A stretch of 64,000 bases of DNA from Mesorhizobium terrae (GTDB taxonomy: Bacteria > Pseudomonadota > Alphaproteobacteria > Rhizobiales > Rhizobiaceae). The translations under genes were made by a program, and so were the position numbers. The notes below the pieces were generated by a model that was not told the origin of the DNA, made no database searches, and worked only from the letters and a program-made list of their open reading frames with translations. The stretch covers positions 4,295,501 to 4,359,500 of the forward strand of contig NZ_CP044218.1 in assembly GCF_008727715.1 (NCBI RefSeq), read 5' to 3'. Position 1 is the first letter of the stretch; each line of letters opens with the position of its first letter. Positions 7,403 through 58,307 of the stretch are shown in pieces.

Positions 7403-7444
7403 CCGCGGATCGCTTTCTGAAGAAAGACGGCACAACGAATTGCA

Positions 7445-7856: not shown

Positions 7857-7922
7857 GTCCGCTTCCTGTTTGACCAAAACCGTGGCTTCGGGCGGTAAGG
7901 CCTGCGGGTTGTTAATTGCAAA

Positions 7923-7963: not shown

Positions 7964-8023
7964 CGAAAATGATGCCGCGCCATGTGAGTGCGGCGGCTTG
8001 AAGCGATTTCGAGAGGATGTGCG

Positions 8024-8443: not shown

Positions 8444-8476
8444 CGATTTGAACCTGAACCGATCGTGAGGCTTGCC

Positions 8477-9358: not shown

Positions 9359-9364
9359 AGAACC

Positions 9365-9703: not shown

Positions 9704-9708
9704 GAGAA

Positions 9709-13005: not shown

Positions 13006-13023
13006 CTGTCTAATTTCTCGAAA

Positions 13024-16379: not shown

Positions 16380-16385
16380 ATTTGG

Positions 16386-17480
16386 TCACTCCCCTCCGGA
16401 TAATTTTGACAACATCACCTTTCGTAAGAGCCGGGTAGGTTCGTCGAGCAGTACATGCCTCTCCTCGTAGCTACGGAGATCTATTCCAGACAACGGCAGT
16501 TGCTGAACCATGTTCTTGTCTTCGGCGGTAATCTGTCTCTGCAGCAGCGCCTCTTCCCGCGCTTGTTCTTCGGACAGGTTTGCTCCCTCGCCCCGCAGAA
16601 CGAGCTTGTAAACTAGCGTGGATTGTGTGGTCTCAGGTTGAAGAGCTAAGAAAATGCGATCAAAAATTCCCCGGCGAGGGTAGGCAATTGTCAAAGCGAG
16701 CGAAAATGGAAAGTAATAGCGGTAGGTAAGAATTCTTTCTTCGACATCGTCCGAATTTCCTCCGCCAATCAGCCTTTTGCCTCGGGCGGACACCTCACAT
16801 TCGAAGCCGTCGTCGACCTCAGACAGTCGCCGGACATCCAGCCGCCCCTTCTGTCCAAAAGTGTCGGCATGTACAAAAGGGAAGTGCGTTACATCGATGA
16901 AGTTGTCGATGATCTGGGATGCGGTAGCTGACCATGAATCGACAAGGCAAAAAGTTCGATCGTCGATCGGCCAAAGTCCCTCTGGAAGAGCTGGAAGCGA
17001 GGTGCTCGAAGCCTGCGGTGCGACCCAAAGAAGGCCGTACTTGACGTCTACGCCGTGCGGGCTACTCAAGCAAAATTGGGCGAGTTGGTTAGTAGTTGCG
17101 CTTGGCGCCGCAACGCAATTCCCTTCACTGTTGAAGACAAACCCATGGTATGGGCAAGAAAGGAGGTTTCCGGCGGCTCTGCCCTTGCTTAACGGGGCCC
17201 CTCGATGCGGACATCGATCTTCAAATATAGAGTACTCGCCGTCCAACCTCGCAACCACGTAATGCTGCCCCAATAGGGTCAAACGTCGCGGCTCTACTCC
17301 GATGTCAGCAACTCGAGCCACCGGGTGCCAGAAAGCAGATAGGCGTTCATCTGAATTTACGAGACGATCCGAAGAAAGAACCACCTCACCCCCCTCGGGA
17401 AGTTGTTCAAAACAGAAGGTAGCAGGCTTCTCGATATTTCCAAAGAAGCCTGACCTCAGCAACATTCGAGCTTCAATCAA
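16386..17480 (-). CDS. Rieske non-heme iron oxygenase, alpha subunit-like
   Basis: 364 residues. The [2Fe-2S] Rieske site is C90-x-H92 (CPHRGAPLSKG) and C109-x2-H112 (CPYHGF). The mononuclear iron motif is DNFIDVTHFPFVHADTFG with H199 and H204, preceded by bridging D196. This is the single-component alpha-subunit architecture of vanillate demethylase or phthalate-type oxygenases; no ferredoxin or beta subunit is nearby. The first 40 residues before DERLSAFWHPVA are longer than usual, but no better start codon is seen. First gene of the operon 17480 to 12343. Confidence 0.85.
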   Translation of the reverse strand: MIEARMLLRSGFFGNIEKPATFCFEQLPEGGEVVLSSDRLVNSDERLSAFWHPVARVADIGVEPRRLTLLGQHYVVARLDGEYSIFEDRCPHRGAPLSKGRAAGNLLSCPYHGFVFNSEGNCVAAPSATTNQLAQFCLSSPHGVDVKYGLLWVAPQASSTSLPALPEGLWPIDDRTFCLVDSWSATASQIIDNFIDVTHFPFVHADTFGQKGRLDVRRLSEVDDGFECEVSARGKRLIGGGNSDDVEERILTYRYYFPFSLALTIAYPRRGIFDRIFLALQPETTQSTLVYKLVLRGEGANLSEEQAREEALLQRQITAEDKNMVQQLPLSGIDLRSYEERHVLLDEPTRLLRKVMLSKLSGGE

Positions 17481-24967: not shown

Positions 24968-25615
24968 ATGCAACCCACATCCCTCAAAATACCGGATGGC
25001 ACCATTGAGGTCGCAGGCCGGTTCTACCTGCCTGACGCGAAAGGCAATCTGGTGCCACTGGAGAGCATCAAGCCCGCCGACAAGCTTCAAGACGAGACCG
25101 TGCGTAAGGTGATGGGACATGCCCGCGACCTTTCTGCTCGGATCGCGCGCTTCAAGCAGCACACCTTCGATGATCTATCGGCTTTCGAGCAACTGCTGGC
25201 GCAAGAATATGACGCCAAGGTCGGCGGCGCGAAGGGCAACAAGACCTTCATGACCTTCGACGGACTTCTGAAGATCTCGGTTCAGGTGCAGGACCATCTC
25301 GACTTCGGCCCGCAACTACAGATCGCCAAGAGGCTGATCGACGACTGCCTGCTCGAGTGGACGGCTGACAGCCGCTTCGAGATCCGCACCATCGTCACGC
25401 GCGCCTTCAACGTTGACAAAAGTGGACAGATCAACCGCGCCGAGATCTTTGCGCTGTTGCGCCACGACATCGACGACGAGCGTTGGGCGAGCGCAATGGC
25501 GGCGATCCGCGACGCCATTCGGGTAGTGGGTTCAAAGACTTATGTGCGCTGTTATGAACGGGTCAGTCTAGACGCAGAATGGCGGGCTGTAACGATCGAT
25601 CTGGCGAAAGCCTGA
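24968..25615 (+). CDS. DUF3164 family phage protein
   Basis: 215 residues. The N-terminal block VAGRFYLPDAKGNLVPLESI, followed by KPADKLQDETVRK and later MTFDGLLKISVQVQDHLDFG and WTADSRFEIRTIVTRAFNVD, are hallmarks of DUF3164, an early protein of unknown function common in Mu-like phages next to the transposition genes. The ATG has GGAGGAAG upstream, the strongest ribosome-binding site in this operon. Confidence 0.85.
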   Translation: MQPTSLKIPDGTIEVAGRFYLPDAKGNLVPLESIKPADKLQDETVRKVMGHARDLSARIARFKQHTFDDLSAFEQLLAQEYDAKVGGAKGNKTFMTFDGLLKISVQVQDHLDFGPQLQIAKRLIDDCLLEWTADSRFEIRTIVTRAFNVDKSGQINRAEIFALLRHDIDDERWASAMAAIRDAIRVVGSKTYVRCYERVSLDAEWRAVTIDLAKA

Positions 25616-25617
25616 GA

Positions 25618-26250
25618 TCAGTGACGTACTTCTGCAATCTCAAATTCTTTCCGGAGAGCCTCAAGCTCGTTCGCGAAAACAGTGAGGTGATCGGTCAATC
25701 GCTCGACGACAATTTTCGCGCGCCGCAGCTGGCGAGAAACACTCATTGGGGAACCGCCGGATGTGTATGCCGCGACCATGTCTGTCAGTTTTCCGTGAAA
25801 TCTATTGATGCTCAAGAATCGATGATGCATCTCTGGTGGAAACAGGCTCTTTGCGTCATCGAAAGTCTGGAGAGAGACGAACCGATCGACGATATTTCGA
25901 AGATTGGGCCAAAGTTTGAGGCTTGTGGGATCCGCTGCTACAGCAGCGAGCCATTCATTGTAGCTCACTACCATCGTTCGGCATCCAACCGCTCGCGCAG
26001 AGCAGCGCTCGATAGTCATTCGGTCTTGCCGAAGAGACAAACGCAAAAGGTCGTTGTGCCGCTTGCCCTGAGCTGCTTCCGTCCTCCGCATCTCAAAAAG
26101 GGTGATTGCTGCTGCGCCGACTGCCAAGATGCCTGCTATGAGGGTCTGCCAGTCATACAGCCGAAATTCCAACTCGGTCATGCCTCCCAAGGCAAGACCC
26201 GCGCAAATGCCTATCAGCAGGGTGGTGATCAGTTCTGCGAAACGGTGCAT
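25618..26250 (-). CDS. Antisense cargo gene: two-helix membrane protein, unknown function
   Basis: 210 residues. Two membrane helices lie at the N-terminus (LITTLLIGICAGLALGGM; LIAGILAVGAAAITLFEM), followed by a soluble helical region of about 150 residues. The gene is opposed to the early operon, begins two bases after the DUF3164 stop codon, and is AT-richer than the phage around it. This is how lysogenic-conversion cargo usually looks; exclusion of other phages at the membrane is a possibility only. No family recognised. Confidence 0.65.
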   Translation of the reverse strand: MHRFAELITTLLIGICAGLALGGMTELEFRLYDWQTLIAGILAVGAAAITLFEMRRTEAAQGKRHNDLLRLSLRQDRMTIERCSARAVGCRTMVVSYNEWLAAVAADPTSLKLWPNLRNIVDRFVSLQTFDDAKSLFPPEMHHRFLSINRFHGKLTDMVAAYTSGGSPMSVSRQLRRAKIVVERLTDHLTVFANELEALRKEFEIAEVRH

Positions 26251-26286
26251 GGATTGTCGTCATGCCTTCCAGTCGGGTGCCATGAG

Positions 26287-26730
26287 TTAGATCTTGCCGC
26301 CCTTCTTCAACACCTGCTGTGCATCGAAAGCGCCGCGTGCTCCGGCTTCATTGGCGTGGAACATGATGACGGTGACGCCGATGTTTGCCGTGCGTGCATA
26401 AACGGGTGTCGAGAAGCTGGTGCCGTTGTATGTGCCGTAAGCGTTGTTGCCGTAGACAGTTGCCGTACCGACCCCGCTGGTCTGGGTCTGCATGCCTACC
26501 AGCCGGCTGCCGGAGGCCATCGTGGCTTGCTCAAGCCGGAAATGCGAATAGCCGCGCGCAAGCGTCGCCTCGGCTGCCTTCTTCATCGTTATGGATGGAG
26601 CGGAACCTACAAAGAGGGCGCCGCTGGCCTGTGTGTCGAGACGCACCACATTAGGCGCCAGCGGCATTTCGCTGGTTGTCGCACAGCCGGCCAATACAAC
26701 CAAAGCAATGCCCACAAGAATCTTGCGCAT
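26287..26730 (-). CDS. Antisense cargo gene: putative lipoprotein
   Basis: 147 residues with a signal peptide and lipobox VLAGCA (Cys at about 15), so the mature protein should be lipid-anchored. The mature part has repeated Gly, Tyr and Thr (TATVYGNNAYGTYNGTSFST) and no known domain. It lies just upstream of the two-helix membrane protein on the same strand and may be cotranscribed with it. Surface lipoproteins carried by prophages often alter receptors, which is inference here. Confidence 0.65.
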   Translation of the reverse strand: MRKILVGIALVVLAGCATTSEMPLAPNVVRLDTQASGALFVGSAPSITMKKAAEATLARGYSHFRLEQATMASGSRLVGMQTQTSGVGTATVYGNNAYGTYNGTSFSTPVYARTANIGVTVIMFHANEAGARGAFDAQQVLKKGGKI

Positions 26731-26819
26731 TGTAGCCCCCCCGAAAAACCCAATCCCAACAGAAGATTAGTCACAGCTTGCGCATACGACAAGGCTGAGA
26801 CGGCGATGGGGCCACGGTT

Positions 26820-27440
26820 GTGAACACCCTTGCCGCAATCCATGTCGCCCGCAGGCAGCTGGGCCTCGACGAGGACACTTATCGTGCACTCGCGCTGCGC
26901 GTCACCGGCAAAGCTTCGGCCGGCGCCATGAATGCCACCGAGCGCGGACGGCTTCTGGAGGCGTTGCGCCGGCACGGCTTCAAGGGCGCGAAAAGAGGGC
27001 TTGAAGGCCCGTTCGCGCGCAAGCTGCAGGCCTTGTGGATCTCGGCCTGGCATCTCGGCCTGGTGCGCGACCGTACAGACGCAGCGCTGCTCGATTTCGT
27101 CCGGCGCCAGACCGGCATCGACCACACACGCTTCCTGGTCGATCCGGTGGACGCGGCCAAGGCGATCGACGCGCTGAAGGCCTGGACGGCGCGCGAAGGC
27201 GGCGTCGACTGGAAGCTCGGCGCTTCGATGCCGGCCTGGCAAAGGCTGCCCGGCGCCAAGATCGTCATCGCGCAATGGTCGACGCTGGAAAGAGCCGGCC
27301 TGGTCGAGCCGGGTTTCAGGGCCTTCGCGGCCTATGTCCAGGACCATGCCTTCAACCCGATCGACAGGATGAGCCCGAAGGAATGGGCCGGCGTTATGGC
27401 GACGCTCGGCACGCGGCTGCGCAAGGTTACCCGGCGATGA
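26820..27440 (+). CDS. gemA: GemA-like regulatory protein (Mu gp16 family)
   Basis: 206 residues, GTG start. The N-terminal half has the gp16/GemA pattern IHVARRQLGLDEDTYRALAL, then VTGKASAGAMNATERGRLLE and LRRHGFKGAK; the C-terminal region FNPIDRMSPKEWAGVMATLG is also typical. In Mu, GemA modulates host gene expression and DNA topology early in infection. It resumes the rightward early operon after the antisense cargo pair. Confidence 0.88.
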   Translation: MNTLAAIHVARRQLGLDEDTYRALALRVTGKASAGAMNATERGRLLEALRRHGFKGAKRGLEGPFARKLQALWISAWHLGLVRDRTDAALLDFVRRQTGIDHTRFLVDPVDAAKAIDALKAWTAREGGVDWKLGASMPAWQRLPGAKIVIAQWSTLERAGLVEPGFRAFAAYVQDHAFNPIDRMSPKEWAGVMATLGTRLRKVTRR

Positions 27441-32344: not shown

Positions 32345-33909
32345 TGGTGCAGATCCTCGACGCCTATGGCAGGCCGATAGACCGGAAAGCGCTGGTGCAG
32401 GAACGCGAGGGGCCGACGCTGACCGGTGTGCGCTCGCCAATGTCAGGCTATCCGGCAGACGGGCTGAACCCGATCAGGCTCGCCGCCATCCTACGCGAAG
32501 CCGACCAGGGCGACCCGGTGCGCTATCTCGAGCTCGCCGAACAGATCGAGGAACGCGACCTGCATTATCTCGGCGTCATCGGCACCCGCAAACGGTCGGT
32601 GGCGCAGCTCGAGGTGACGGTGGATGCCGCAAGCGATGCCGCCGCCGATGTCGAGAAGGCGGACCGGATCCGCGCCTGGCTGCAGCGCGACGAATTGCAG
32701 GACGAGACCTTCGACGTGCTGGACAGCGTCGGCAAGGGTTATTCCTTCACCCGCATCCAATGGGACACATCGGAAGGGCAATGGCAGCCGAAGCGGCTCG
32801 ACCGCTGGGACCAGCGCTGGTTCCGTTTCGCCAGGCAGGATCTCGCCACGCCGCTGATGCTGGACGAGGACGGCCGCGAACTGCCGCTGCCGCCCGGCGA
32901 ATTCATCTTCGCGGTGATGAAGGCGAAGTCCGGCCTGCCGATGCGTTCCGGCCTGGCGCGCGTCGCCGCCTGGGCCTGGATGTTCAAGGCCTTCGCCAAC
33001 CGCGACTGGGCGATCTTCACCCAGACCTATGGGCAGCCGATCCGCATCGGCAAATATGGCGCCGACGCCACCGACGACGACAAGCGCAAGCTCTATCGGG
33101 CGGTGGCCAATATCGCTGGCGATTGCGCCGCGATCATGCCGGACGGCATGGCGATCGAGTTCGTCGAGGCGAAATCGATCGGCGCCTCGATCGACCTTTA
33201 TGAAAAGCGCGTCGACTGGCTGGACCGGCAGGTCTCCAAGGCGGTGCTCGGCCAGACCACGACGACAGACGCCATCTCCGGCGGCCATGCCGTGTCGGAG
33301 GAACACCGCAAGGTGCAGGAGGACATCGAGCGCGCCGACGCCCGCGCGCTGGCCGCGATCCTCAACCGCGATCTGGTCAGGCTGTGGATCGACCTCGAAT
33401 ACGGGCCGCAGAAAGCCTATCCGCGGCTAACCATCGCCCGGCCGGAAAAGGAGGACCTGGCGCAATTGTCGACGGCGCTGTCACAGCTGGTGCCGATCGG
33501 GCTCAGGGTGCAGGCCTCGGAGATCCGCGACAAGTTCGGCCTGGCCGAACCCGGCCCGCAGGACGAGGTGCTGGCGCCGGCGGTGCCGAAAGAGCCGGGC
33601 AGGGCCGAGCGGTCGGAAAAGCCCCGAGAGAAGCCTGCGCTGCAGCATCAGCACACGCCAGCCGCCGCCTTGCCGGACGAGCTGATCGGGCAGCAGGGCG
33701 CGAATCTCGGTGCGCCGGCTGTAGCCGCGTTAGTCGACCGCGTGCGCGGGTTGGTTGGCCGCGCCGGCAGCCTGGAGGCGGCCGAGGCGGTTCTGTTTCG
33801 CGTTGCCGCGGTCGAGCGCACGCCGGCCGAGCTGGTGACCGCGCTGCGGCAGGCGATGCTTCTGGCCTGGCTGGCCGGCGAGGCGGCGGAGGTCGACCGT
33901 GGCGACTAG
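32344..33909 (+). CDS. Portal protein (DUF935, Mu gp29-like)
   Basis: 521 residues of the DUF935 portal family: ILREADQGDPVRYLELAEQI, IGTRKRSVAQLEVTVDAASD, ANRDWAIFTQTYGQPIRIGK and TDAISGGHAVSEEHRKVQED are characteristic. It forms the ring at the head vertex for DNA entry and exit. TGATG overlap with the terminase; the 3' end overlaps gene F by 11 bases. Confidence 0.92.
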   Translation: MVQILDAYGRPIDRKALVQEREGPTLTGVRSPMSGYPADGLNPIRLAAILREADQGDPVRYLELAEQIEERDLHYLGVIGTRKRSVAQLEVTVDAASDAAADVEKADRIRAWLQRDELQDETFDVLDSVGKGYSFTRIQWDTSEGQWQPKRLDRWDQRWFRFARQDLATPLMLDEDGRELPLPPGEFIFAVMKAKSGLPMRSGLARVAAWAWMFKAFANRDWAIFTQTYGQPIRIGKYGADATDDDKRKLYRAVANIAGDCAAIMPDGMAIEFVEAKSIGASIDLYEKRVDWLDRQVSKAVLGQTTTTDAISGGHAVSEEHRKVQEDIERADARALAAILNRDLVRLWIDLEYGPQKAYPRLTIARPEKEDLAQLSTALSQLVPIGLRVQASEIRDKFGLAEPGPQDEVLAPAVPKEPGRAERSEKPREKPALQHQHTPAAALPDELIGQQGANLGAPAVAALVDRVRGLVGRAGSLEAAEAVLFRVAAVERTPAELVTALRQAMLLAWLAGEAAEVDRGD

Positions 33910-34573
33910 CGGCGTGCGTTTCGACGAGGCTATCGATTTCCTGCGACGCCGGCTGGCGCTGCCGCCCGAACGCTGGCTCGAACTGTTGCGCGCCGTCGAC
34001 GCCGGGGCAACCGACCGCGCCGCCGGCATGAGCGATGCGCTGGTGCATGACATCACGCAGGCCGTGCTCGACGCGCTGGAGGAGGGCACGGGCCTGCCGG
34101 GGTTCCTGGCCGAATGGGACGGGATCGTCGAGCGGCACGGCTGGGAGAGCGACGGCCGGCGCGCCGCGCTCGCCTTTCGTATCGCCACCGCGCAGGCCTA
34201 TGCCGCGGGGCGCTGGCAGCAGATCCAGCGGCTGAAACATATCAGGCCCTATCTTCGCTACGTCCATGTCGACCCGGCGCTCACGCAACCAGGCAGCCGC
34301 GAGGAACACGCCGCCTGGCATGGGGTCATCCTTCCTGTCGACCACGACTGGTGGCAAACGCATTATCCGCCGAACGGCTGGAACTGTCGCTGCTACGTGC
34401 AGTCCCTGTCGGCGCGGGATATCGCTCGCTACGGCTGGTCGGTTGATGAGGACGCGCCGCCCGAACGCACCATCATCAAGTGGCAACACGGCCGTCCGGT
34501 CGAGATGCCGGCCGGCATCGATCCGGGCTTTGGTGTGAATGTTGGGGTCGTCGGGCTCCGGTTGCCCAGTTGA
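33899..34573 (+). CDS. Head morphogenesis protein (Mu F / SPP1 gp7-like), short form
   Basis: 224 residues with the family core REEHAAWHGVILPVDHDWWQ, then THYPPNGWNCRCYVQSLSAR, a conserved Cys-containing motif of the minor head protein that joins portal and capsid. Mu F is nearly twice as long, so this is a short form. The end, from GRPVEMPAGIDPGFGVNV to LRLPS, recurs in damaged form at 35498-35625, downstream of a cargo gene, so this 3' end has been involved in recombination. Confidence 0.85.
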   Translation: MATSGVRFDEAIDFLRRRLALPPERWLELLRAVDAGATDRAAGMSDALVHDITQAVLDALEEGTGLPGFLAEWDGIVERHGWESDGRRAALAFRIATAQAYAAGRWQQIQRLKHIRPYLRYVHVDPALTQPGSREEHAAWHGVILPVDHDWWQTHYPPNGWNCRCYVQSLSARDIARYGWSVDEDAPPERTIIKWQHGRPVEMPAGIDPGFGVNVGVVGLRLPS

Positions 34574-34946
34574 AGGCCGAAACGCGGCTGAAAGCGTTCA
34601 AAACCGCTTTAGCATGCGGGAAATCGGGAAACGAAACCTCGGCATAACACGAGGCTTCGATGTGTGAACAAAATCATAGAGGTATAATAAAAGCGCAAAT
34701 AAATGACCTATAGGCTCAATCATTGGAATAGAGGTGGAAATTACAGCCGCCTCGGGCCTGGTTGCAAACTATCGGCCGCGTTGAATATTGCCCGCGTCGT
34801 GCAGCTACCGATCCAATCGGCACCGGATTTAAGTCGAGATTTCGAGGCGGTGGGGATCAATTATCGCATTCGACAAAGGCTATGCTGATCGCGCTCCGAT
34901 CTTGGGCAGCCGACGCAAGCTTAGATCAGATTTTGGAGCAATCGCG
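34574..34946. other. Non-coding left part of the F-I insertion
   Basis: 373 bases, AT-richer than the phage. The first 50 resemble the sequence that follows the F remnant at 35625-35650 (CGGCTGAAAGCGTT shared). No gene is convincing: an open frame of 61 codons at 34703 has neither a ribosome-binding site nor phage-like codon use. Confidence 0.5.
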
Positions 34947-35243
34947 ATGTTTACATACGTAATTCGTGCATCTGCTGCAGTGGCTATTCTTGCAGCAAGT
35001 GCTTCATATGCAATGGCGGGGAAACTTACCTGTTCACAGGGGTCGGAAGCAGTCTGCGATGCCTGGTGCGGACATGTGGGTGGCGGGATGTCTTCGAACC
35101 CGGATGGCTCGGTGAGCTGCTCTTACGCCATGGCTTCGTACAAGGCGAAAATGGACGCCAAGAAAAAATACGACATCACGAAATTGAACAAGGGCGACTG
35201 GAAAATCACGGCCGTCTCGAAGAAGAAGCCGAAAGCTAAGTAA
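34947..35243 (+). CDS. Small secreted protein, prophage cargo
   Basis: 98 residues with a clear Sec signal peptide (MFTYVIRASAAVAILAASAS then YAMAG). The mature domain of about 75 residues has four cysteines (CSQGSEAVCDAWCGH...CSY) that could form two disulfides, and a lysine-rich tail. GGAG lies ten bases before the ATG. It is alone in AT-richer DNA inside the head gene cluster, with a stem-loop just after it. Not recognised; a lysogenic-conversion role is possible. Confidence 0.65.
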   Translation: MFTYVIRASAAVAILAASASYAMAGKLTCSQGSEAVCDAWCGHVGGGMSSNPDGSVSCSYAMASYKAKMDAKKKYDITKLNKGDWKITAVSKKKPKAK

Positions 35244-35439: not shown

Positions 35440-35632
35440 TTGAGTGCTATCTCGCCGGTACGGCTGGAAGCTAGTGGAAGTCGCGACGCCCCAAAGCACT
35501 GTCGTCAAATGGCAGAGCGGCCGTCTGATCGAGTCGTCGGCTGGCATCGATCCGGGTGTCGACATGAATGTCGAGGCGGTCGGACTCCGGTTGCCAAGCT
35601 TAGCGCGGGATCACGGCTGAAAGCGTTTTGAA
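35440..35632 (+). pseudogene. Remnant of the 3' end of head gene F (second copy)
   Basis: Read from 35498 the sequence gives TVVKWQSGRLIESSAGIDPG then VDMNVEAVGLRLPS, clearly homologous to the end of F at 34473-34570 (TIIKWQHGRPVEMPAGIDPG...VGLRLPS). DNA similarity starts further left with CGGTACGGCTGGAA, equal to the RYGW region of F, but a five-base difference before 35498 breaks the frame. The non-coding sequence after it also resembles that after F. It is a divergent, not recent, copy, so it probably came from a related phage. Confidence 0.75.
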
Positions 35633-35707
35633 TTGCTTGAGCGTGTCTGTCTTTCAACGGCGCAAGACGCAGCCGGTGCCTTTCCCTTCGTCGTCTTATG
35701 TCTTTCA

Positions 35708-38700
35708 CTAAATGCCACGATTTGCTTGGCTGACGCTTAGTTGCTTCATCCGCTCCTCAATTTGAATTTCTGCGCGGCTGACATCCTCAGTAGGAAGGAA
35801 ATGGCCGACAAGCCAGCGGCCGATATACTGCTGGATGGGGGCAGCACACTCCCTTTTGATCAAAGTAAGAACAAGCGCCCAATGGGTGGAGTGATATCGT
35901 ATCATCTGTTCTAGCAGGACGCCTGTGGCCTGCTGGCAGGCGACATCGAACTGGTCGCTTACGAGCCAAAGCTGATTGAGGAACTCCACTGCTACATTGA
36001 TATGCGATCGCATGTCTGCATTTTTGGTACCCATAAAATGAGCGAGCGCCTTGAAGTTTTCCAGATTTCTCTCTCGACTGTCCTCATAGGCGACAAGCAA
36101 CGTGGCGGCGTCCAACGAGAGGTGGCCGTGACGATGCCACGCGAGTTTTACAACAAGATCAACATAGTCACGCTGGTCGATGGTTCCGAGTGCGCGTGCG
36201 AATGCAAACACGGCCTGAAGCCATACACCTCTGGTTGAACAGGCTGCTTCACCAAACTGGCGGAAGTTCATGTCCTCGGAGAGGAGAATGTGCTTCGTTC
36301 CTGCGAGATTAGCCGCGTCGAGCACATGGGCACCCAAGGATTGGTGGGTCAAGATCGCCAACTCAGATGGCTTGTTTTCAATAATGACCGGCCGAATATC
36401 GCAAGCTGCCTCGATCCTGGCGATTTTCTCTATGATATAGTTGCGACGAACTGCGACATCGCCTGCAGTGAATTCCTGCTTGATGTATTCGCCATCATGC
36501 CAAGCGATTGTCATCGCCTCTTGGCCAACAAATTCCTGATCGTCTCTTAGCGTTCTTAACTCATCAATAACGGATTGAGGAACTATCACCGATCCAACCA
36601 CCGACTTCAGTGCTGCGAAAGCATCCATCGTGGCAACTGTCCATGCCGTGTAGGTATCAAGGACCGCGCCAGTATGTCTGTAATCGCTTAGTATTTTCTC
36701 CGCTGCTACACGCTCCGCTTCGGTGCCTGCGCACGTGCGGATATCGAAGTCGAGAAAGCGGATATAGTCCACAAAACTGATGGCGTCGCGGTCGCCCCTC
36801 GAGACAACTAGGCTGATGGGATAGTTGTTCTCCAGATAGAGATCGGCGAGCTTTCGATTGCTCTCCGATACGCGACGAACCTGATCCAGCGCTGGCTGGA
36901 TATTGTCATCCTCGATCGTGACTTTGTAGAAGCCCTTGGTATCCGGAAATCTTTTCTCGAAATTCTCCATGACGTCGTGCAAAGCGTGGAGATATTTGTG
37001 CTTGATCTCTACGACACGCCACTTTCGAACCCGGCCAAAACCAGCCGGCATCTCGAATTCGTCATTGATCTTCAGACCAAGGGCCGCCGCAACAGTCGGA
37101 TGAGCTGGGCTCAAGATATCCTCGGCAGGTCGATCACTGCCTTCTTCAATGAGGAACGCATGCGTCTCGTGCTTATCGCTTTCTAGGCTGACCCATGTTC
37201 CAACTGCTACGGTTTCAACAGGCGGGATGAGACCGTCCGCCGGATTCATCATGATGAGACCGAAATAGCGAAGAGCTGCGTTCTGGTCATTTCTAGCAGA
37301 TCGGAGTACTTCATAGGCGTACTCGAGTGCTTTGGCTCCCTCCCCGATCTTTCGCACGATTTGGGCTAGGAACATCTTCTGACCAGGTGTTCCATCCACC
37401 GTCTTGAGATCGATTGCTTCAACGACCTCTTTCAATTCGTCATTTCGATCTGAGCGGTAGAGCACCGAGATGAGCGCAAGGTAGTTTTCAAGGTCCGGTC
37501 GTACCTGGACGGCCTTTCTGAGTGCCGCTTCTGCTTCGGAGAGGGCGCCGCGGTTGAAGTGCAACAAACCTTCAGCATTCAGGAAGAAGGGGAGTGCTCT
37601 TAACTCGACGGACAATCGTTCGAAGAAAGCCAAGGCACGCTGCCGGATGGGGTAATCATTGACCAATGCGCGTGCAAGTGTCCGCAATTCGTCATTGTCA
37701 TGGTCTTCCGCTACATGATTGTCCAACAGGTCCACGACGATCGAATAATCTCCGCGCCGTGCCGCATGATGTGCCACCATCAACCTGTCCGCGACGTGAC
37801 TTTCATCACTGATATGGGTGAGGGCTACTTTGTAGGTATCATCAGCAATGCCCTGAATTCCTTCTCTTCGCGCAAAGTCAGCGACGATAATGCTGGCGCG
37901 AGCATCGCCAGAGGCCTCGGAGGCAATAGAGGATATCTGTTGCCTGAGCGTTTCCTGATCACCATGACTGATCTTAATCTTTGCTAGCTTTCCGGTCGTT
38001 AAGATAGCCGGGGCTTCCGACGCTGGGATCAACAAAGCGTCATCCTCAGCGATACGCACTACTTCTTCCCAATCTCCACGTGCGGCGTGAAATCGGAACT
38101 TTAGGACAGCTGCGTCCGAACTTCTCGGTAGCTTAGCAAGGAGCGATCGAGCGAAGAGCTCGTCATCGGCGTCGATGGCGACTACGGCTGCGCGGGTAAT
38201 GATCTCGACGTCATTAGGCGCTAGCGAGAGCCCTTGATGTGCGATGTCGATCGCTGCATTCAGGTTGCCGAGGGCATGAAGCGTAACCAAGATATTGCAG
38301 CAAACAGCTGCATCCTCTGGCCGTATTGCACCGTCAGCAACCCTCGCATGATCCCATCGTGAAATGAGTATTGTTGCTGCAGCTTCGAGCCTACTTCGTT
38401 CCGTCGGTGAGAGCAGGCGCCGGTTTTGAAAGCCTTCACTTGCTAATATTTCCTCGAGGTCAGCCTCCGCTGCAAATTGCATCGCATAAGGCTCCAGGGG
38501 ATGTGCTTCAAACACCTTTCGAGCGATCGGCCACCAATCACCCGGCTTGCCATTGCGTCTGACGAAATCAATCCTTCCGATCTGAACTGAAGCAGTTGCG
38601 TGCAGTTGTTCAGGAACGATGCCGAGCGGATCGCTGATCGATGTATCGAACCTGGCGGCCTGTACGACGTAGCCTGCGAGCCATTCATTCGTTGGATTGG

Positions 38701-39703
38701 CTTCCAGCATTGAGCTTCCGAATGCCAGAACCTCCTCGTATTCCTCCCTCAGCAAGTGCCCGAAAGCCTTGTTTGCAACAGCTTTGGGCTCGTCAGGCGC
38801 GTGGCTGTAGGATGCCAGCAACATCGCGGCGGCGTCATCGTCCTTGCCGAGCGCCACCAGGCAATGGCCGATGTTCGCTTTTATGCGGAAGAGGATGCGA
38901 CCGGAAGCTGATGTCTTGACACGATCCAGGAGCCTTTCCAGCAGCGGTAATGCGGTCAGCGTTTTTCCGTTGTTGTTCAGTTCGCGATATTCGTCGATCT
39001 CGGCATCGAGATGCTCCTCAAGCAAGCTCATTGCGACTGTTGTGTCACCTGGTGGCACAACCCTCAGCGCGCTTACTTCGGTGATCATTGCTTCTATACG
39101 AGAGAAGCCAGCGCTCATGTCCGCACGTGTCTCATGCTGAGCAACGAGCATCGCCCGCGTTTCGTCTAGAAGTTTCCCACTGAACGGGTCGTAGGTTGGA
39201 TCGAACGAGTTGCGGGCGTCGGCATCCTCGTTGATTTTTTCTTCCAGCGTATTCCACCCCCAAACGAAGACGCGAAGTTTGTGATTTGATTTCGCTAGCT
39301 CCGTCGTGATGACACGCGCGAGTTCCTGCATCGCGACATCATCCGATGCAGTTGTCGTTATGTAGAATTCTCTAAGAAGAGGCTTGAATGTCAGAGCCTT
39401 CCGGACCTCACTGCGAACTTCTGCCTCTGTGAGGAAATGTCCTTCACTTTTGAGTTTGCATTGAATGCCAACCAGCCAATCCGTGTCATTGTCACGAATT
39501 CCGAAGAGATCGACGCCATTCTGTCGTTGCCCCCGTCGACCGTTCCGCTGCACCGATCGATCGTTGAGCAAGCTGCGCCACAGCACAACTGAAGCGCGCT
39601 CGAAAGCTTGTTCGTCAGCTGGCTTGGGGATCTGGGTTGCGGCAAGAAGTGACATGAGAGAAGCAGAGTGTGATTCGTTGTACTTGAGTGCACATTGATA
39701 CAA
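35708..39703 (-). CDS. Nuclease-TPR-GreAB-C-PIN conflict-system protein, reversed in the phage head operon
   Basis: 1331 residues from a TTG with AAGG seven bases upstream (an ATG at 39655 is the alternative). Residues 30-165 look like a PD-(D/E)XK nuclease: GQRQNGVDLFG with D65 and IQCK with Q81/K83. Residues about 230-800 are helical TPR-like repeats. About 830-905 is a GreA/GreB C-terminal-type domain (ILSPAHPTVAAALGLKINDE). About 960-1160 is a PIN RNase with acidic VLDTYTAW (about D1016), IDELRTL, HVLDAANL and LLSEDMNF. A helical tail of 170 residues follows. This order matches the TPR-GreAB-C-PIN systems predicted by comparative genomics as antiviral; function here is inferred. It is AT-richer than the phage and opposed to the late genes. 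Confidence 0.8.
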   Translation of the reverse strand: MYQCALKYNESHSASLMSLLAATQIPKPADEQAFERASVVLWRSLLNDRSVQRNGRRGQRQNGVDLFGIRDNDTDWLVGIQCKLKSEGHFLTEAEVRSEVRKALTFKPLLREFYITTTASDDVAMQELARVITTELAKSNHKLRVFVWGWNTLEEKINEDADARNSFDPTYDPFSGKLLDETRAMLVAQHETRADMSAGFSRIEAMITEVSALRVVPPGDTTVAMSLLEEHLDAEIDEYRELNNNGKTLTALPLLERLLDRVKTSASGRILFRIKANIGHCLVALGKDDDAAAMLLASYSHAPDEPKAVANKAFGHLLREEYEEVLAFGSSMLEANPTNEWLAGYVVQAARFDTSISDPLGIVPEQLHATASVQIGRIDFVRRNGKPGDWWPIARKVFEAHPLEPYAMQFAAEADLEEILASEGFQNRRLLSPTERSRLEAAATILISRWDHARVADGAIRPEDAAVCCNILVTLHALGNLNAAIDIAHQGLSLAPNDVEIITRAAVVAIDADDELFARSLLAKLPRSSDAAVLKFRFHAARGDWEEVVRIAEDDALLIPASEAPAILTTGKLAKIKISHGDQETLRQQISSIASEASGDARASIIVADFARREGIQGIADDTYKVALTHISDESHVADRLMVAHHAARRGDYSIVVDLLDNHVAEDHDNDELRTLARALVNDYPIRQRALAFFERLSVELRALPFFLNAEGLLHFNRGALSEAEAALRKAVQVRPDLENYLALISVLYRSDRNDELKEVVEAIDLKTVDGTPGQKMFLAQIVRKIGEGAKALEYAYEVLRSARNDQNAALRYFGLIMMNPADGLIPPVETVAVGTWVSLESDKHETHAFLIEEGSDRPAEDILSPAHPTVAAALGLKINDEFEMPAGFGRVRKWRVVEIKHKYLHALHDVMENFEKRFPDTKGFYKVTIEDDNIQPALDQVRRVSESNRKLADLYLENNYPISLVVSRGDRDAISFVDYIRFLDFDIRTCAGTEAERVAAEKILSDYRHTGAVLDTYTAWTVATMDAFAALKSVVGSVIVPQSVIDELRTLRDDQEFVGQEAMTIAWHDGEYIKQEFTAGDVAVRRNYIIEKIARIEAACDIRPVIIENKPSELAILTHQSLGAHVLDAANLAGTKHILLSEDMNFRQFGEAACSTRGVWLQAVFAFARALGTIDQRDYVDLVVKLAWHRHGHLSLDAATLLVAYEDSRERNLENFKALAHFMGTKNADMRSHINVAVEFLNQLWLVSDQFDVACQQATGVLLEQMIRYHSTHWALVLTLIKRECAAPIQQYIGRWLVGHFLPTEDVSRAEIQIEERMKQLSVSQANRGI

Positions 39704-39815
39704 TCACATACCTTCGTCAGTTGCTGCGTCATTCAAAGTTGGAATCTGATAGTCAACAGGTAGAAAAAGAGCGGTAGAAGCAAAGCTTTGCAGAACCAAT
39801 AGCGAATTGGTGCCA

Positions 39816-39870
39816 CGCCCGCGCCGGCGGGCATGGTTTGAGCTTTTCCATGGCGGCAAGCTGCCGCCAT
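39816..39870 (+). promoter_or_regulatory. Two hairpins before and over the protease start codon
   Basis: A GCCCGC-GCCG-GCGGGC-like hairpin lies at about 39816-39831, and ATGGCGGCA-AGC-TGCCGCCAT at 39850-39870. The last two bases of the second arm are the first two of the protease ATG (39869). They mark the return to GC-rich phage DNA and could hide the start codon or act as an insulator after the cargo. Confidence 0.45.
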
Positions 39871-40942
39871 GCTTCGCTCCTCGCTTCACTCCGCCGAAAT
39901 CGCCGCCGTGGCGCTCTGCGCCGCCGTCGGCTTGCCTGAGGGCGCGCCTGATTGGGTGCATCTTCTTCCAGCCGGCGAGATCCGCACCGGCGATGGCCGG
40001 GGGCCGTACCGCGTGCCTGACGCCGCCCGCCTGGCGACTGCGAGCCTTGGCGCCGGCGAGCGGCTGCCGATCGACGAGAACCACGCCACCGATCTCGCCG
40101 CCCCGCGTGGGGAGCCTGCGCCGGCGCGCGGCTGGATCGTCGAGTTGCAGGCGCGCGCCGACGGCGTCTGGGGCAGGGTGGAATGGACCGAGGACGGCCG
40201 CCACCTGGTCGCCAGCCGCGCCTATCGCGGCATTTCGCCGGCGATCCAGCACGCCGCCGACGGCACCGTCACCGCCATCCTGCGCGCCTCGCTGGTCAAC
40301 CGGCCGAACCTGCGCGGACTGACCACGCTTCACCAGGAGACAGAGATGAACCCGCTGCTCGAAAAGTTGCTCGCCGCGCTCGGCCTGCCTGCCACTACGG
40401 CCGAGGACGCGGCACTGGCCGCTGTCACCACGCTGCATGCCGAAAAGGCGAAGTCCTTGACGGCGCTGCAGGCCGCCCTCGATCCGATTGCGGTGGCGCT
40501 CGGCCTGCAGGCTGGCATCGATGCCGGCGCCGTGCTGACCGGTGCCCAGGCGCTCGCCACCGGCAAGGGCGGCAAGGACAGCGAGCAAGCCCTTACCGCG
40601 CTGCAGAGCGAGCTCGCCACCGTCACCAAGAGCCTGAATTCCCTGCAGGAGACGACAAAACGCGAGAAAGCCGAAGCCTATGTCGACGGCGCCATCAAGG
40701 CCGGTCGCGTCGGCGTCAAGCCGCTGCGCGACCGCTACATCGCCATGCACATGGCCGATCCCGCCGGCACAGCCGAACTGATCGCCGGCCTGCCAGTGCT
40801 TGGCGGCGGTGGCGAGATCGTGCCGCCGCCGGCTCCGGCGGGCGAGATCGCGCTGCAGGCGGAACAGCGCCAGGCCGCGCGCCTGCTCGGCATCGCCGAG
40901 AAGGACTATCTCGCCACGCTGAAGGCCGAACGCCAGGCCTAG
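39869..40942 (+). CDS. Mu-like prohead protease (gp I family) with scaffold domain
   Basis: 357 residues. The N-terminal 155 residues are the protease part (GERLPIDENHATDLAAP, then ARGWIVELQARADGVWGRVE, with the SRAYRGISPAIQ region typical of Mu I). The C-terminal 200 residues are helical and would act as scaffold, as in Mu where I and Z share a frame. No ribosome-binding site is visible before this ATG, which lies inside a hairpin; an earlier start may have been lost when the cargo entered. Confidence 0.85.
   Translation: MLRSSLHSAEIAAVALCAAVGLPEGAPDWVHLLPAGEIRTGDGRGPYRVPDAARLATASLGAGERLPIDENHATDLAAPRGEPAPARGWIVELQARADGVWGRVEWTEDGRHLVASRAYRGISPAIQHAADGTVTAILRASLVNRPNLRGLTTLHQETEMNPLLEKLLAALGLPATTAEDAALAAVTTLHAEKAKSLTALQAALDPIAVALGLQAGIDAGAVLTGAQALATGKGGKDSEQALTALQSELATVTKSLNSLQETTKREKAEAYVDGAIKAGRVGVKPLRDRYIAMHMADPAGTAELIAGLPVLGGGGEIVPPPAPAGEIALQAEQRQAARLLGIAEKDYLATLKAERQA
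40346..40942 (+). CDS. Internal in-frame scaffold protein (Mu Z-like)
   Basis: An ATG at 40346 in the protease frame follows AGGAGACAGAG, a far better ribosome-binding site than that of the full-length gene. The 198-residue product (MNPLLEKLLAALGLP...) would be the helical scaffold alone, with a coiled-coil stretch near LTALQSELATVTKSLNSLQE. Mu and lambda use the same nested protease-scaffold arrangement. Confidence 0.7.
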   Translation: MNPLLEKLLAALGLPATTAEDAALAAVTTLHAEKAKSLTALQAALDPIAVALGLQAGIDAGAVLTGAQALATGKGGKDSEQALTALQSELATVTKSLNSLQETTKREKAEAYVDGAIKAGRVGVKPLRDRYIAMHMADPAGTAELIAGLPVLGGGGEIVPPPAPAGEIALQAEQRQAARLLGIAEKDYLATLKAERQA

Positions 40943-54631: not shown

Positions 54632-55438
54632 ATGAGCCTTGAAGATGAGTTTATGGCGGTCGAAACGGTGCAGCCGCCGGCGCCCTATATCGGCGGCAAG
54701 CGCCGCCTTGCGGCACACATCGCTGCACGGATTGCCGCTATTCCACATCGTACCTATGCCGAGGTTTTTGTCGGCATGGGTGGCGTCTTCTTTCGTCGAC
54801 GCCACCGGCCACGGTCCGAGGTGATCAACGACCGCAGCGGCGAGGTGGCGAACCTGTTCCGCATCCTGCAGCGGCACTATCCGCAGTTCTTGGACACGCT
54901 CCGCTTCCAGATCACCGGCCGCAAGGAATTCGAGCGGCTGAAGGTGTCCGATCCGGCGACGCTGACCGATCTAGAGCGGGCCGGCCGTTTTCTCTACCTT
55001 CAGCGGATCGCCTTTGGCGGCAAGGTTTCCGGCCGAAATTTTGGTGTCGATCCGGGTTCGGGAGGTGCCTTCAACCTGTCGCGTCTGGAGCCGCTTCTGG
55101 CCGACGTGCATGAGCGCCTCGCCGGCGTGGTCATCGAATGCTTGGATTGGCTGGAATTCATCGAGCGTTACGACCGAGCGGAGACGCTGTTTTACCTTGA
55201 TCCACCCTATTTCGGCTCAGAAGGCGACTACGGCCGCGATCTGTTCGACCGTGAGCAATTTGGGTTGATGGCTGAGCGGCTGGCGCGCCTGAAAGGTCGC
55301 TTCCTGCTCTCCATCAACGACGTGTCCGAGATCCGCACTGCCTTCGCTGGCTTTGCTTTTGAAGGGGTGGAACTCGCCTATTCGGTCGGCGGTGGCCGAC
55401 GCACCAAACGGGCACGGGAGCTGATTATCTCGAGATAG
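54632..55438 (+). CDS. Dam-type DNA adenine methyltransferase
   Basis: 268 residues of the D12 class: PYIGGKRRLAAHIAARI (SAM site FxGxG-like), FVGMGGVFFRRR, and the catalytic DPPYFGSEGDYG near residue 190. It methylates adenine N6, most likely protecting phage DNA from host restriction, as the right-end modification genes of Mu-like phages do. A second ATG at 54653 is possible. Last gene of the phage core. Confidence 0.9.
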   Translation: MSLEDEFMAVETVQPPAPYIGGKRRLAAHIAARIAAIPHRTYAEVFVGMGGVFFRRRHRPRSEVINDRSGEVANLFRILQRHYPQFLDTLRFQITGRKEFERLKVSDPATLTDLERAGRFLYLQRIAFGGKVSGRNFGVDPGSGGAFNLSRLEPLLADVHERLAGVVIECLDWLEFIERYDRAETLFYLDPPYFGSEGDYGRDLFDREQFGLMAERLARLKGRFLLSINDVSEIRTAFAGFAFEGVELAYSVGGGRRTKRARELIISR

Positions 55439-55557
55439 CGCAGGACACTGTGTCGCGTGGTCGAGTTACCAACGATGGAGAGATCCAAACTCCAACATTA
55501 TGTTGATTTCACACAGTTTACCTGCCAGCGATGAGTGTCGATTTGTAGGGGGGAACG

Positions 55558-56502
55558 ATGCCTATAGGCGGACACTTACTCGATGTCCTTAACGGATACG
55601 CGTTGGCGAAGAACGAGACATTTGAGGGCCATGCCCTCGCGCAAAAAATTCGCGTTGAATTGCCAAAATCAATTCGTGCTGCATTGCCAGGCGAGGATTT
55701 GTTGCTCTTGATCAAGGGCAGTGCGGGACAGGGAGCCTGGGCGCGAGGGCCTTGGGCTGCCATCTTCGACCGCCTAGTTACTAACAGTGCGCAACGTGGT
55801 TTCTATCCAGTCTATCTGTTCGCTGAGGACATGAAAGGCGTCTACCTAAGCCTCAACCAGGCTATGACCGAGGCGAAGAAGCGCTATCGCGCTGATGCCA
55901 AGACAGCACTACGTGCTAGGGCCGAGAATTTCCGTGCGATGCTTGGGTCCAATATCCAGCCGTTTGATGCAAACGCGATCAACCTCGCTCCCAGTAGCGT
56001 CAGCAATGACACGGCATTTTACGAAGCCGGCAATATTTGCTCGGTCTATTATCCTGCTGACAAAATTCCTGCTGAATCTGCGTTGGTCAGGGATCTCGTA
56101 AGAGTCTTAGACCTCTACCGGATTTTGATTGAAGCGGGCGCTGGTGACGAACAAAACGGGCAGGAAGAGCTCGAAATTTTCTTCGAAGGAGATGGTCGAG
56201 CAAGGACACATCTGAGGATTGAGCGGAACCGAAAATTGGTTGCCAGAGTGAAGAAGCTCAAAGGCTGTCGTTGTGAAGCATGCGACATGAGTTTCTCAGA
56301 ACGCTACGGAGAGCTAGGGGTGGACTTTATCGAGGCCCATCATCTGGTGCCGTTCTCTCAATTGAAAGGGAACGCCATTCCCTTAGATCCCGTCGCCGAC
56401 TTCGCTGTTCTTTGCGCCAATTGCCACAGGATGGTTCATCGAATGAAGGATATAGCCGACATCAATGGGTTACGCGCTGCTCTTCAAACCAACAAGGCTT
56501 GA
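55558..56502 (+). CDS. McrB N-terminal domain fused to HNH nuclease (modification-dependent restriction enzyme)
   Basis: 314 residues. Residues about 35-130 match the MrcB_N (DUF3578) domain: LLLLIKGSAGQGAWARGPWA, YPVYLFAEDMKGVYLSLNQA. The C-terminal 75 residues are an HNH nuclease with zinc-binding CRCEACDMSF and LCANCHRMVH around VDFIEAHHLVPFSQ. In ScoMcrA-type enzymes this pairing cuts DNA carrying modified bases. It is AT-richer than the phage and sits between the Dam gene and the integrase, so it may belong to either element. Its 3' end overlaps the integrase by 33 bases. Confidence 0.82.
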   Translation: MPIGGHLLDVLNGYALAKNETFEGHALAQKIRVELPKSIRAALPGEDLLLLIKGSAGQGAWARGPWAAIFDRLVTNSAQRGFYPVYLFAEDMKGVYLSLNQAMTEAKKRYRADAKTALRARAENFRAMLGSNIQPFDANAINLAPSSVSNDTAFYEAGNICSVYYPADKIPAESALVRDLVRVLDLYRILIEAGAGDEQNGQEELEIFFEGDGRARTHLRIERNRKLVARVKKLKGCRCEACDMSFSERYGELGVDFIEAHHLVPFSQLKGNAIPLDPVADFAVLCANCHRMVHRMKDIADINGLRAALQTNKA

Positions 56503-57846
56503 GCGTGAGCTCCTTGTTCCATCATTTGAACTTTTGGAGACGGGTACTCTCGTCGATTTCTGCACCAGCGAAGCGAATTTGTCGCGGATCTCTGCTTTGC
56601 GGATGTCTGGTGCAAGATGGCCATAGGTACGGCTGACCGTGTCGATGTTAGCGTGGCCGAGCTGTTCGGCAACGACGATCAGCGGCGTGCCGTCCTGGAC
56701 AAGTTGGCTAGCATAGGTGTGGCGCAAGCCATGGAAACAGAAATCCTCCGGCAATTCAGCGTCAAAGACAGCGCGTTTGAAGCCTGGACGATGGTTGGTG
56801 TACCATTGCCTGCCGTCTTTTCGCACGAATAGCAGGTCGTTGGGTTTCTTGCCGGCCGCTAATTTTTGGAAGAAGGCGAGCCCCTCATCGGGCAACATCA
56901 CCACCCGCGGGCGGTAGCATTTGACAGGTGTGACATAGACGCCTGCACCGTCGCGACCGAAATGCGATGCCTGCATGTTGAGCAATTCCTTGATGCGGCA
57001 CCCGGTGTAGAGCGCACCCAGAACCAGGGTTCGCAAATCCGGCGCGCAGTGTTCGAGCAGCCGGAAGCATTCCGGTCGGCTGAGATGCAACATGCGCGGT
57101 CGGTCGACATTGTTCAGCCGGCGTATGCAACGCCAGGGACGATCCGATTCTATATAGCTGTTTTCCCAAGCCATCAGCAGCGCCATACGCAGCACTCCGA
57201 TCAGCGTGTTGGTCGTCTTCCTGCGTTTCCTAAGTTCCTCCTCCGACATGGCCTCGATCGGTCGCCGTGGCTTGAGCGGCTGGTTTCCCCTTTTAGGCGG
57301 TGTCTCGAGAACATCCTTGATGAAAAACCGCAGTCGTTCGGAATTCATGTCTTTCGCGGGAAGAGAAAACAGCCGCGGCACGAAGTGGAGGTTGATCAGG
57401 GTGACAAGGGCGACAAAATGCGAGCGCGCGGCAACCACGCGCTTCCACTCGATGTAGTCGCTCAAGGCACGTCCTATTGTGTAGACATCGCCGATCGGAG
57501 AGGCTTTCAGAAAGTCGATGGAGCCGATTGGCCTGGCGTCGGTGGCCAGGTGTTTGAAGGGGTTCGCCGCGAACCATTCCTGGGCAGCCTCGCAAGCGGC
57601 TTCGAACGAAAGCCCTTGGTCGCCAATGTCCGGATTGTCTTCGGTGAAGGCAAGCCGGTGTTGTTGATAGCTTGCATCCTTCAGTCTGATCTTGGCGACC
57701 CAATGGGTCGCGCCGGAGCGATATTTTTGGTAGCCGACGGCGCGGCCATACTCCAAAGTCTGCCAATAGGGTGCGTAACGCCCGCGTAAAGATTGACGCA
57801 GTTCGACGTCCGACAGATCAAAGCCGAAGACGGTTTTTCCAGCCAT
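56470..57846 (-). CDS. Tyrosine recombinase / integrase
   Basis: About 458 residues from the ATG at 57846 (MAGKTVFGFDLSDVELRQSL); upstream ATGs up to 57921 are possible. The catalytic set is visible: Arg in YTGCRIKELL, HGLRHTYASQL (H-x-x-R), GHANIDTVSRTYGHL (H and Tyr). N-terminal SAM-like and core-binding domains precede. The last 25 residues (SSNDGTRSSRSSLVGLKSS) look like read-through into flanking sequence. It is oriented away from the tRNA-Val at 59148, the usual arrangement for an integrase placed near its tRNA attachment site. Confidence 0.88.
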   Translation of the reverse strand: MAGKTVFGFDLSDVELRQSLRGRYAPYWQTLEYGRAVGYQKYRSGATHWVAKIRLKDASYQQHRLAFTEDNPDIGDQGLSFEAACEAAQEWFAANPFKHLATDARPIGSIDFLKASPIGDVYTIGRALSDYIEWKRVVAARSHFVALVTLINLHFVPRLFSLPAKDMNSERLRFFIKDVLETPPKRGNQPLKPRRPIEAMSEEELRKRRKTTNTLIGVLRMALLMAWENSYIESDRPWRCIRRLNNVDRPRMLHLSRPECFRLLEHCAPDLRTLVLGALYTGCRIKELLNMQASHFGRDGAGVYVTPVKCYRPRVVMLPDEGLAFFQKLAAGKKPNDLLFVRKDGRQWYTNHRPGFKRAVFDAELPEDFCFHGLRHTYASQLVQDGTPLIVVAEQLGHANIDTVSRTYGHLAPDIRKAEIRDKFASLVQKSTRVPVSKSSNDGTRSSRSSLVGLKSSA

Positions 57847-57899
57847 GCTCGCATCCCAGCGCCTATCGTGGTCGGACAATGGCATTGTAGGGTGACAAT

Positions 57900-58307
57900 A
57901 TGACGAGCCCGTCTGATGCACTGCATGCGGTAATGGTGGCCCGGTTGAGGGCGTTGGACATGATGCCGGTTGCGGTTGCAGAGGCGAGGCCGCGCGAGGA
58001 GCCGAGGGAATTTCCCTATGCTTCGATCGGTGTCACCGCTGCCGACGAGGATGGCGGCAGCGTCAGTTTGCTGGCCACCGTCCACTTCTGGGATCGTTCG
58101 GGCGACGCATCCACCAGAAAACTGCTCAAGAAAATCCAATCCGCCTTCGTCGAACCGCCGACGGTTGACGGCTACGAATTCGTCACCTGGGCGCCGGACT
58201 ACTCTGAAATCAGGGCAGAAGACGAGTATTCGGCCTTCCACGGGTTGGCGCGGTTCAGCGCCCAGATCCAACGAAGGCCTGATTGGCAGCAAGAGTCAGC
58301 TGTCTGA
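57900..58307 (+). CDS. DUF3168 tail-completion protein (phage remnant)
   Basis: 135 residues: LHAVMVARLRALDMMPVAVA, EPREFPYASIGVTAADEDGG, TVHFWDRSGDASTRKLLKKI, of the DUF3168 family (GTA gp8, head-tail joining). It is not part of the Mu-like late operon and stands with the integrase, so it is a leftover of a second, lambda- or GTA-like prophage. Confidence 0.82.
   Translation: MTSPSDALHAVMVARLRALDMMPVAVAEARPREEPREFPYASIGVTAADEDGGSVSLLATVHFWDRSGDASTRKLLKKIQSAFVEPPTVDGYEFVTWAPDYSEIRAEDEYSAFHGLARFSAQIQRRPDWQQESAV

Follow-up and report, generated by a model that had tools for sequence, protein, structure and literature searches.

A TPR-GreA/B-C-PIN protein with an Mrr-like nuclease domain as probable anti-phage cargo in the head operon of a Mu-like prophage of Mesorhizobium terrae

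The window analysed here is a stretch of 64,000 nucleotides of the Mesorhizobium terrae genome (RefSeq assembly GCF_008727715.1, contig NZ_CP044218.1, positions 4,295,501 to 4,359,500), and its subject is a single large gene (35708-39703, minus strand) that lies antisense to the head operon of a Mu-like prophage, between the genes F and I. The encoded protein is a new member of the published TPR-GreA/B-C-PIN family, an architecture that is already known, and is probably a single-protein anti-phage system of this kind, with an Mrr-like restriction endonuclease (REase) effector, captured by a Mu-like phage into the slot between F and I; an anti-phage role as such we regard as likely, with good confidence. 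The occurrence of a single-gene member in a prophage, together with a near-isogenic sister phage that carries other cargo, makes a direct test feasible. The gene and the domains of its product are as follows.

35708..39703, minus strand: gene of the TPR-GreA/B-C-PIN protein with N-terminal Mrr-like nuclease (open frame, profiles, homologues)
39194..39637, minus strand: Mrr-like PD-(D/E)XK nuclease domain, residues 23-170, with D65, Q81 and K83 (below the Pfam cut-off in the window protein)
37229..39028, minus strand: TPR superhelix, residues about 226-825 (profiles, model)
36995..37234, minus strand: GreA/GreB C-terminal domain (Gre-C), residues about 824-903 (profile, model)
36929..37003, minus strand: most conserved stretch, the helix after Gre-C, residues 901-925 (alignment entropy)
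36248..36664, minus strand: PIN nuclease domain, residues 1014-1152, model match 1004-1189 (profile, conservation, model)

The frame is intact and comprises 1331 codons counted from a TTG located immediately 3' of a stop codon, the numbering used for residues throughout. Because methionine 17 is conserved (105 of 114 full-length sequences, the window included) and about 95% of the sequences are gapped before residue 17, the true start is probably the ATG at 39655, which would give a protein of 1315 residues. A chance open reading frame (ORF) was ruled out by 186 homologous proteins that reached E <= 0.001 in a set of 8000 scored candidates, the window's own record counted in; the length falls between 1250 and 1370 residues in 113 of the 120 matches listed.

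Profiles, structure models and conservation support the original prediction, which had read the protein as a PD-(D/E)XK-like nuclease followed by a TPR array, a GreA/B C-terminal domain and a PIN RNase. The family PIN-TPR-GreABC (PF20698) matches residues 1014-1152 at 4.1e-20 (72.9 bits, cut-off 27.8), several Pfam TPR families match the core, and the TPR, Gre-C and PIN folds are all found in the models. The ten best structural matches are all members of the Gre family, and four of these come from RNA polymerase complexes or a model of RNA polymerase. The active-site residues named in that prediction are near-invariant in the 114 aligned sequences: among ungapped sequences D65 is kept in 112 of 112 and both Q81 and K83 in 113 of 113, and the acidic residues of the PIN domain are likewise conserved (D1016 and D1129 in 114 of 114, D1144 in 113, D1047 in 111). 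The Mrr_cat family (PF04471, cut-off 21 bits) is matched above its cut-off by two relatives, P0101 and L175 (25.4 and 26.2 bits), and a search of a viral structure library with the whole model placed a restriction endonuclease at rank 19 (E 5.6e-3). Residues 901-925 (KHKYLHALHDVMENFEKRFPDTKGF) had the lowest mean entropy of the segments compared, 0.69 bits, whereas the nuclease had 0.92, PIN 1.48, TPR 1.54 and Gre-C 1.63; at a guess, this helix may contact a conserved host partner. Unlike a Gre transcript cleavage factor, the window protein has no N-terminal coiled-coil hairpin with an acidic tip, the models showing TPR helices before Gre-C instead.

TPR-GreA/B-C-PIN conflict systems, mostly standalone genes, were described by Kaur et al. 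2021 (eLife, PMC8195603, Figure 2K), with N-terminal effectors that can be swapped among REase, HNH, PNPase, TIR, SIR2 and others, or EAD10. The window protein shows every structural feature of this kind that was tested, namely a TPR core, Gre-C between TPR and PIN, PIN on the C-terminal side and an N-terminal effector, and shares with the published systems the domain order, the PIN family (PF20698), an effector of the REase kind and a standalone gene; it differs in being exchangeable cargo of a Mu-like phage, phage carriage not being discussed in the portion of PMC8195603 available to us. The effector swap is visible among the homologues found here as well: the core on a Nostoc plasmid (L215) has a phosphorylase-like domain (PNP_UDP_1, 2.3e-8) at the nuclease's place, and no Mrr match was obtained in the distant cores L181, L182, L217 and L218. 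Double-PIN siblings of about 2070 residues (PF24407; L172 and L175) have a like Mrr-like N-terminal domain, helical middle and PF20698 PIN, but are some 740 residues longer, carry PF24407 upstream of the PIN region and, in the one tested, show no PF01272 match; L175 matches PF24407 at 4.6e-16 and PF20698 at 9.4e-8, and genome G128 (C73) has two PF20698 matches in one frame. DS-3 (DefensePredictor, PMC13092281) is likewise a single protein that defends only with its PIN catalytic residues intact, but its PIN domain is split between the N- and C-terminus and Gre-C is not mentioned for it in the portion of that paper available. A literature search found no assay of TPR-GreA/B-C-PIN proteins, and the available portions of PMC7159879 and PMC10907252 contain nothing on the system.

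The gene is, as the original prediction had noted, AT-richer than its surroundings and opposed to the late genes: its GC content is 53%, against 66% and 68% for the flanking phage DNA, and it stands on the minus strand between neighbours that match phrog_220 and phrog_328. Its predicted nature as phage-borne cargo is supported by the IMG/VR contig IMGVR_UViG_3300035005_000003 (L036, hereafter the sister phage), in which the whole block is replaced. The features of the slot in the window are listed below.

33899..34573, plus strand: F-like minor head protein, bounding the slot on the left (phrog_220, 5.6e-62)
35449..35627, plus strand: diverged (73-74%) copy of the F 3' end, readable in one frame to a stop (sequence comparison)
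35455..39809, no strand: exchangeable cargo module, swapped as a block in the sister phage (alignment)
39823..39842, no strand: imperfect GC-rich inverted repeat just upstream of I, right border of the slot (by eye, coordinates approximate)
39869..40942, plus strand: I-like head maturation protease, bounding the slot on the right (phrog_328, 1.6e-70)

Window and sister phage are 93.4% identical on the left (5.7 kb) and 94.7% on the right (11.1 kb), with homology ending at 35454 and restarting at 39810, so that one cargo exactly replaces the other. The module measures 4355 bp (53% GC) in the window and 4223 bp (56% GC) in the sister phage, where a minus-strand gene (5764-9804) encodes a 1346-residue protein unrelated to that of the window. 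This protein has a Walker A motif (residue 38) and, towards its C-terminus, a D ... E-x-K stretch; it is possibly an undescribed nucleoside triphosphatase (NTPase)-nuclease defence gene. The second, diverged F 3' end between F and the gene is a probable recombination scar, such as would be expected if a donor phage had passed on the module together with the last part of its F gene. Within the module no co-directional neighbour accompanies the gene, which is thus standalone here; a terminator scan gave six sites against 4.0 expected. Between F and the cargo, an ORF of 113 amino acids (34902-35243, plus strand) with a signal-peptide-like start is also present in the sister phage and has no Pfam match.

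The interval between F and I was also compared beyond this pair of phages. Mu-like loci were gathered from viral contigs scanned with I, T and F (of 92 in the first scan, the best 80 were kept), from eight genomic stretches of the host genus, one of them a second prophage of the window's own genome, and from the window; with five duplicate contigs dropped, 91 loci had both F and I, and 83 were left after clustering, the visible interval length being bounded by flanks of 10 kb. F-I spans at least 1.5 kb in 21 of the 83 loci and at least 2.5 kb in 11, and no neighbouring interval reaches 1.5 kb (TerL-portal 0/58, portal-F 0/80, I-T 0/78); among the four intervals measured, only F-I is expandable. 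The median F-I gap is 1231 bp, in most lineages filled by other phage sequence, and a length of 1.5 kb is therefore by itself no proof of cargo. Known or candidate defence families do occupy the slot in other phages: among the 11 intervals that reach 2.5 kb, six have a PADLOC match at E <= 1e-10, and the seventh listed here has a weak one.

L206: PD-Lambda-4_A, matched over its whole length (5.8e-304)
L040: PifA
L039: PD-Lambda-5 A and B
L130: PDC-S06 and Old, and an SRAP gene (PF02586)
L074: PDC-S49
L211: AriA/Old-like
L073: DrmC, weak (2.8e-8)

Three of the ten intervals of 1.5-2.5 kb were submitted to PADLOC, and matches came from L041 (PDC-S20, 3.4e-75) and, weakly, L112 (PDC-M01B/PtuB, 6.3e-7). 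PD-Lambda-4 reportedly originates from the study that validated PD-Lambda-5. The latter was validated in E. coli (PMC9519451). By eye, the L206 interval (genome G111) also holds a Ku-like ORF (277 amino acids) and an SRAP-resembling ORF (235 amino acids). In 16 loci, the right border of the slot, roughly 15-125 bp upstream of I, was inspected by eye for short inverted repeats, which are of a GCCCGC/GCGGGC type in seven (window, L036, L037, L038, L039, L206 and L211) and of a GACACCTGTC type in six (L130, L129, L092 and L078, with variants in L066 and L041); neither type was seen in L040, L074 and L058.

A comparable arrangement exists in Pseudomonas phage JBD30, in which homologues of I (JBD30_037, profile E 1.1e-58) and T (JBD30_038, 5.3e-119) follow two ORFs of 78 and 79 codons directly upstream of the I homologue, annotated as hypothetical in the record. 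We take these two ORFs to be the anti-CRISPR genes AcrIF1 and Aca1. In Pseudomonas Mu-like phages, a 2014 study (PMC4378225) placed anti-CRISPR genes in the low-GC plastic region RGP G and located RGP H between the protease-scaffold and the major head gene; from this lettering, RGP G would lie just before the protease. RGP G and F-I both hold low-GC accessory genes among head genes, apparently just before the protease, but the former carries counter-defence genes of 78-79 codons and the latter large defence genes. The prophage hotspots of P2, P4, Vibrio K139-like (P2-like) and Bacillus phages (Rousset et al. 2022, PMC9122126) likewise consist of a conserved gene pair flanking varying antiviral cargo; the present slot belongs to another kind of phage and another site, the head operon between F and I, and 'Mu-like' has 0 occurrences in the portion of that text available. 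The literature search, judged from titles and the beginnings of abstracts, turned up no account of a defence hotspot at this position, and the F-I slot as a candidate defence hotspot of Mu-like phages, with a natural near-isogenic pair, is the more novel part of this work. The slot offers a means of finding further phage-borne defence genes, the sister phage's 1346-residue protein being among the candidates.

Homologues and their neighbours were searched for, as the original prediction proposed for prophages and defence islands. Several plasmid homologues stand beside defence genes; no phage-borne relative was found, either by tblastn among 50,697 phage records or by a pattern scan of IMG/VR, which detects close relatives only. 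Among 72,556 plasmid records 31 were matched by tblastn, and in 12 of these a single place covered 80% or more of the query. Eleven plasmid neighbourhoods (H1-H8, H11-H13) were viewed with flanks of 10-12 kb and four with 3-4 kb; neighbours in five of the eleven, picked by annotation, were submitted to PADLOC, and all five gave strong matches. The homologues of S. meliloti LMB1 (GajA 5.3e-272, SduA 5e-128), A. tumefaciens (GajA 1.8e-272, Dsr1 1.8e-56 over the N-terminal quarter) and R. johnstonii (GajA 1.6e-239), and the more distant cores (25-26% identity) of Mesorhizobium B2-1-1 (Pycsar cyclase, 1.4e-219) and Salipiger (CBASS cyclase, 6.2e-158), thus adjoin Gabija, Shedu, Pycsar and CBASS genes. 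Neighbourhoods in Acetobacter (CHAT) and Qipengyuania (AAA and helicase) are suggestive by annotation only. In Bosea, Ancylobacter and Sinorhizobium plasmids (L015, L016, L017) a conserved helix-turn-helix gene and an AbiD/PD-T4-5-like gene lie directly upstream; the Ancylobacter copy of the latter, the sole one submitted to PADLOC, scored 6.5e-15, and in Sinorhizobium it is cut to 91 codons, so the partner is not required everywhere. The family spreads horizontally in the company of defence genes, and among relatives of the host its presence is sporadic, PF20698 reaching E <= 0.001 in 13 of 298 genomes, the window's own among them, and passing the cut-off in 11 of 298. Ten genes of the phage, searched at 42 loci that hold a homologue or its N-terminal domain, gave more than one weak match at none of them (MuA, 2.2e-6, L165); with this and the absence of matches in phage records, phage carriage looks like one capture.

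PMC8195603 proposes that GreA/B-C engages the beta' coiled coil of a virus-hijacked RNA polymerase, that PIN cuts the extruded transcript and that the N-terminal effector serves as a second line upon failure, so the original prediction was mistaken in stating that no mechanistic account was known. For the window protein, we would tentatively propose that it is made in the lysogen and held inactive; the cargo being on the other strand, a silent prophage could still express the gene. Gre-C would dock near the secondary channel of RNA polymerase, and the nucleases would be freed when a rival phage acts on transcription or when some other ligand meets the TPR superhelix, upon which PIN would cleave RNA, the N-terminal domain would cleave DNA and the rival infection would end. 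RNA polymerase docking as the trigger or targeting step is a possibility that we put forward with some reserve, and whether both nucleases are needed seems to us evenly balanced. A hijacked RNA polymerase as trigger would, if true, be an unusual way of sensing infection. The protein could also be a defence protein not triggered by RNA polymerase, in which a phage protein is bound directly by the TPR superhelix, in the way suggested for the TPR sensors of STAND systems, Gre-C being only a scaffold or an FKBP-like binding domain; this is a tenable but tentative alternative, against which stands the exclusively Gre-family character of the ten best structural matches, with polymerase complexes among them.

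Two other explanations concern the role itself. An addiction or plasmid- and prophage-maintenance gene that hurts cells losing it, or competing elements, with phage defence secondary, would suit a family found on plasmids and in a prophage and having toxin-antitoxin genes, by annotation, in several of its neighbourhoods; we consider it improbable, as no antitoxin-like partner adjoins the gene in the window, the tested neighbours are anti-phage systems and the F-I slot holds anti-phage families. A toxin-antitoxin pair proper was set aside, given this missing partner and the erosion of the upstream pair in Sinorhizobium. That a host transcription or RNA quality-control factor was picked up by the phage by chance is very improbable: Gre-C and PIN domains are indeed known from transcription and RNA decay factors, but the sporadic presence in relatives, the missing Gre hairpin and the company of defence genes all argue otherwise. 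A housekeeping elongation factor was likewise set aside, since only the C-terminal domain of Gre is present, the distribution is sporadic and the neighbours are mobile or defence genes.

Several results weigh against the interpretation of the gene as a TPR-GreA/B-C-PIN defence system in a defence slot. In the window protein the GreA_GreB match (PF01272, 1.6e-5) falls just under its cut-off (25.3 against 26.9 bits) and Mrr_cat_2 (0.037) is below the Pfam cut-off, and PF01272 was not detected at E <= 0.01 in five distant cores or in P0101. A sequence profile search of the PDB gave GreB at 0.0018 only and no PD-(D/E)XK chain, and the whole-model fold search was dominated by TPR proteins, so the nuclease domain was barely probed by structure. 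PADLOC matches of the window protein are weak, the best being PDC-S70 PIN (5.5e-4), and promoters in the module are not above chance (one found, 3.0 expected). Among the plasmid neighbourhoods, the annotation of those of Bradyrhizobium 2S1 and Pseudohalocynthiibacter (H4, H12) points to no clear defence system. As to the slot, PADLOC found nothing in two ORFs of L040, in the single tested ORF each of L036, L135 and L096 (F-I of at least 2.5 kb) and in one of the two ORFs of L038 (1.5-2.5 kb), and the L036 protein has no Pfam match either; on this evidence the slot need not hold defence genes alone. A joint reading would regard the interval upstream of the protease-scaffold gene I as an old, shared slot for arms cargo of Mu-like phages, in which alphaproteobacterial and other lineages carry anti-phage systems and Pseudomonas phages counter-defence, the cargo moving by homologous exchange anchored in F, the border inverted repeat and I, and the protein acting as an RNA-polymerase-docked double nuclease that destroys the rival's template and transcript; taken as a whole, we deem it rather unlikely.

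Other parts of the window also vary between phages. Near the right end, a second exchangeable block (55432-56561, corresponding to 3439-5109 of the sister L205) encodes an MrcB_N-HNH protein (55558-56502) in the window but in the sister a KAP NTPase with a PDC-S20 match (1e-73), and is adjoined by a D12 methyltransferase gene (54632-55438). To its right, 56473-58304 carries a phage integrase, matches tail-completion gp17 weakly, is 96% identical in the sister contig and may be part of another prophage. A third, low-GC block (24971-26820) has no counterpart in the sister phage (compared with L143) and includes a 414-amino-acid ORF (25579-26823) with no PHROG match. Left of the prophage lies an AT-richer, catabolic-looking block (12343-17480, minus strand) with flavin reductase, NMT1-like, DyP_N and Rieske oxygenase genes. 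The same genome contains a second, distant Mu-like prophage (L213, G000:C2:1906000-1922000), whose F and I are 36% and about 40% identical to those of the window.

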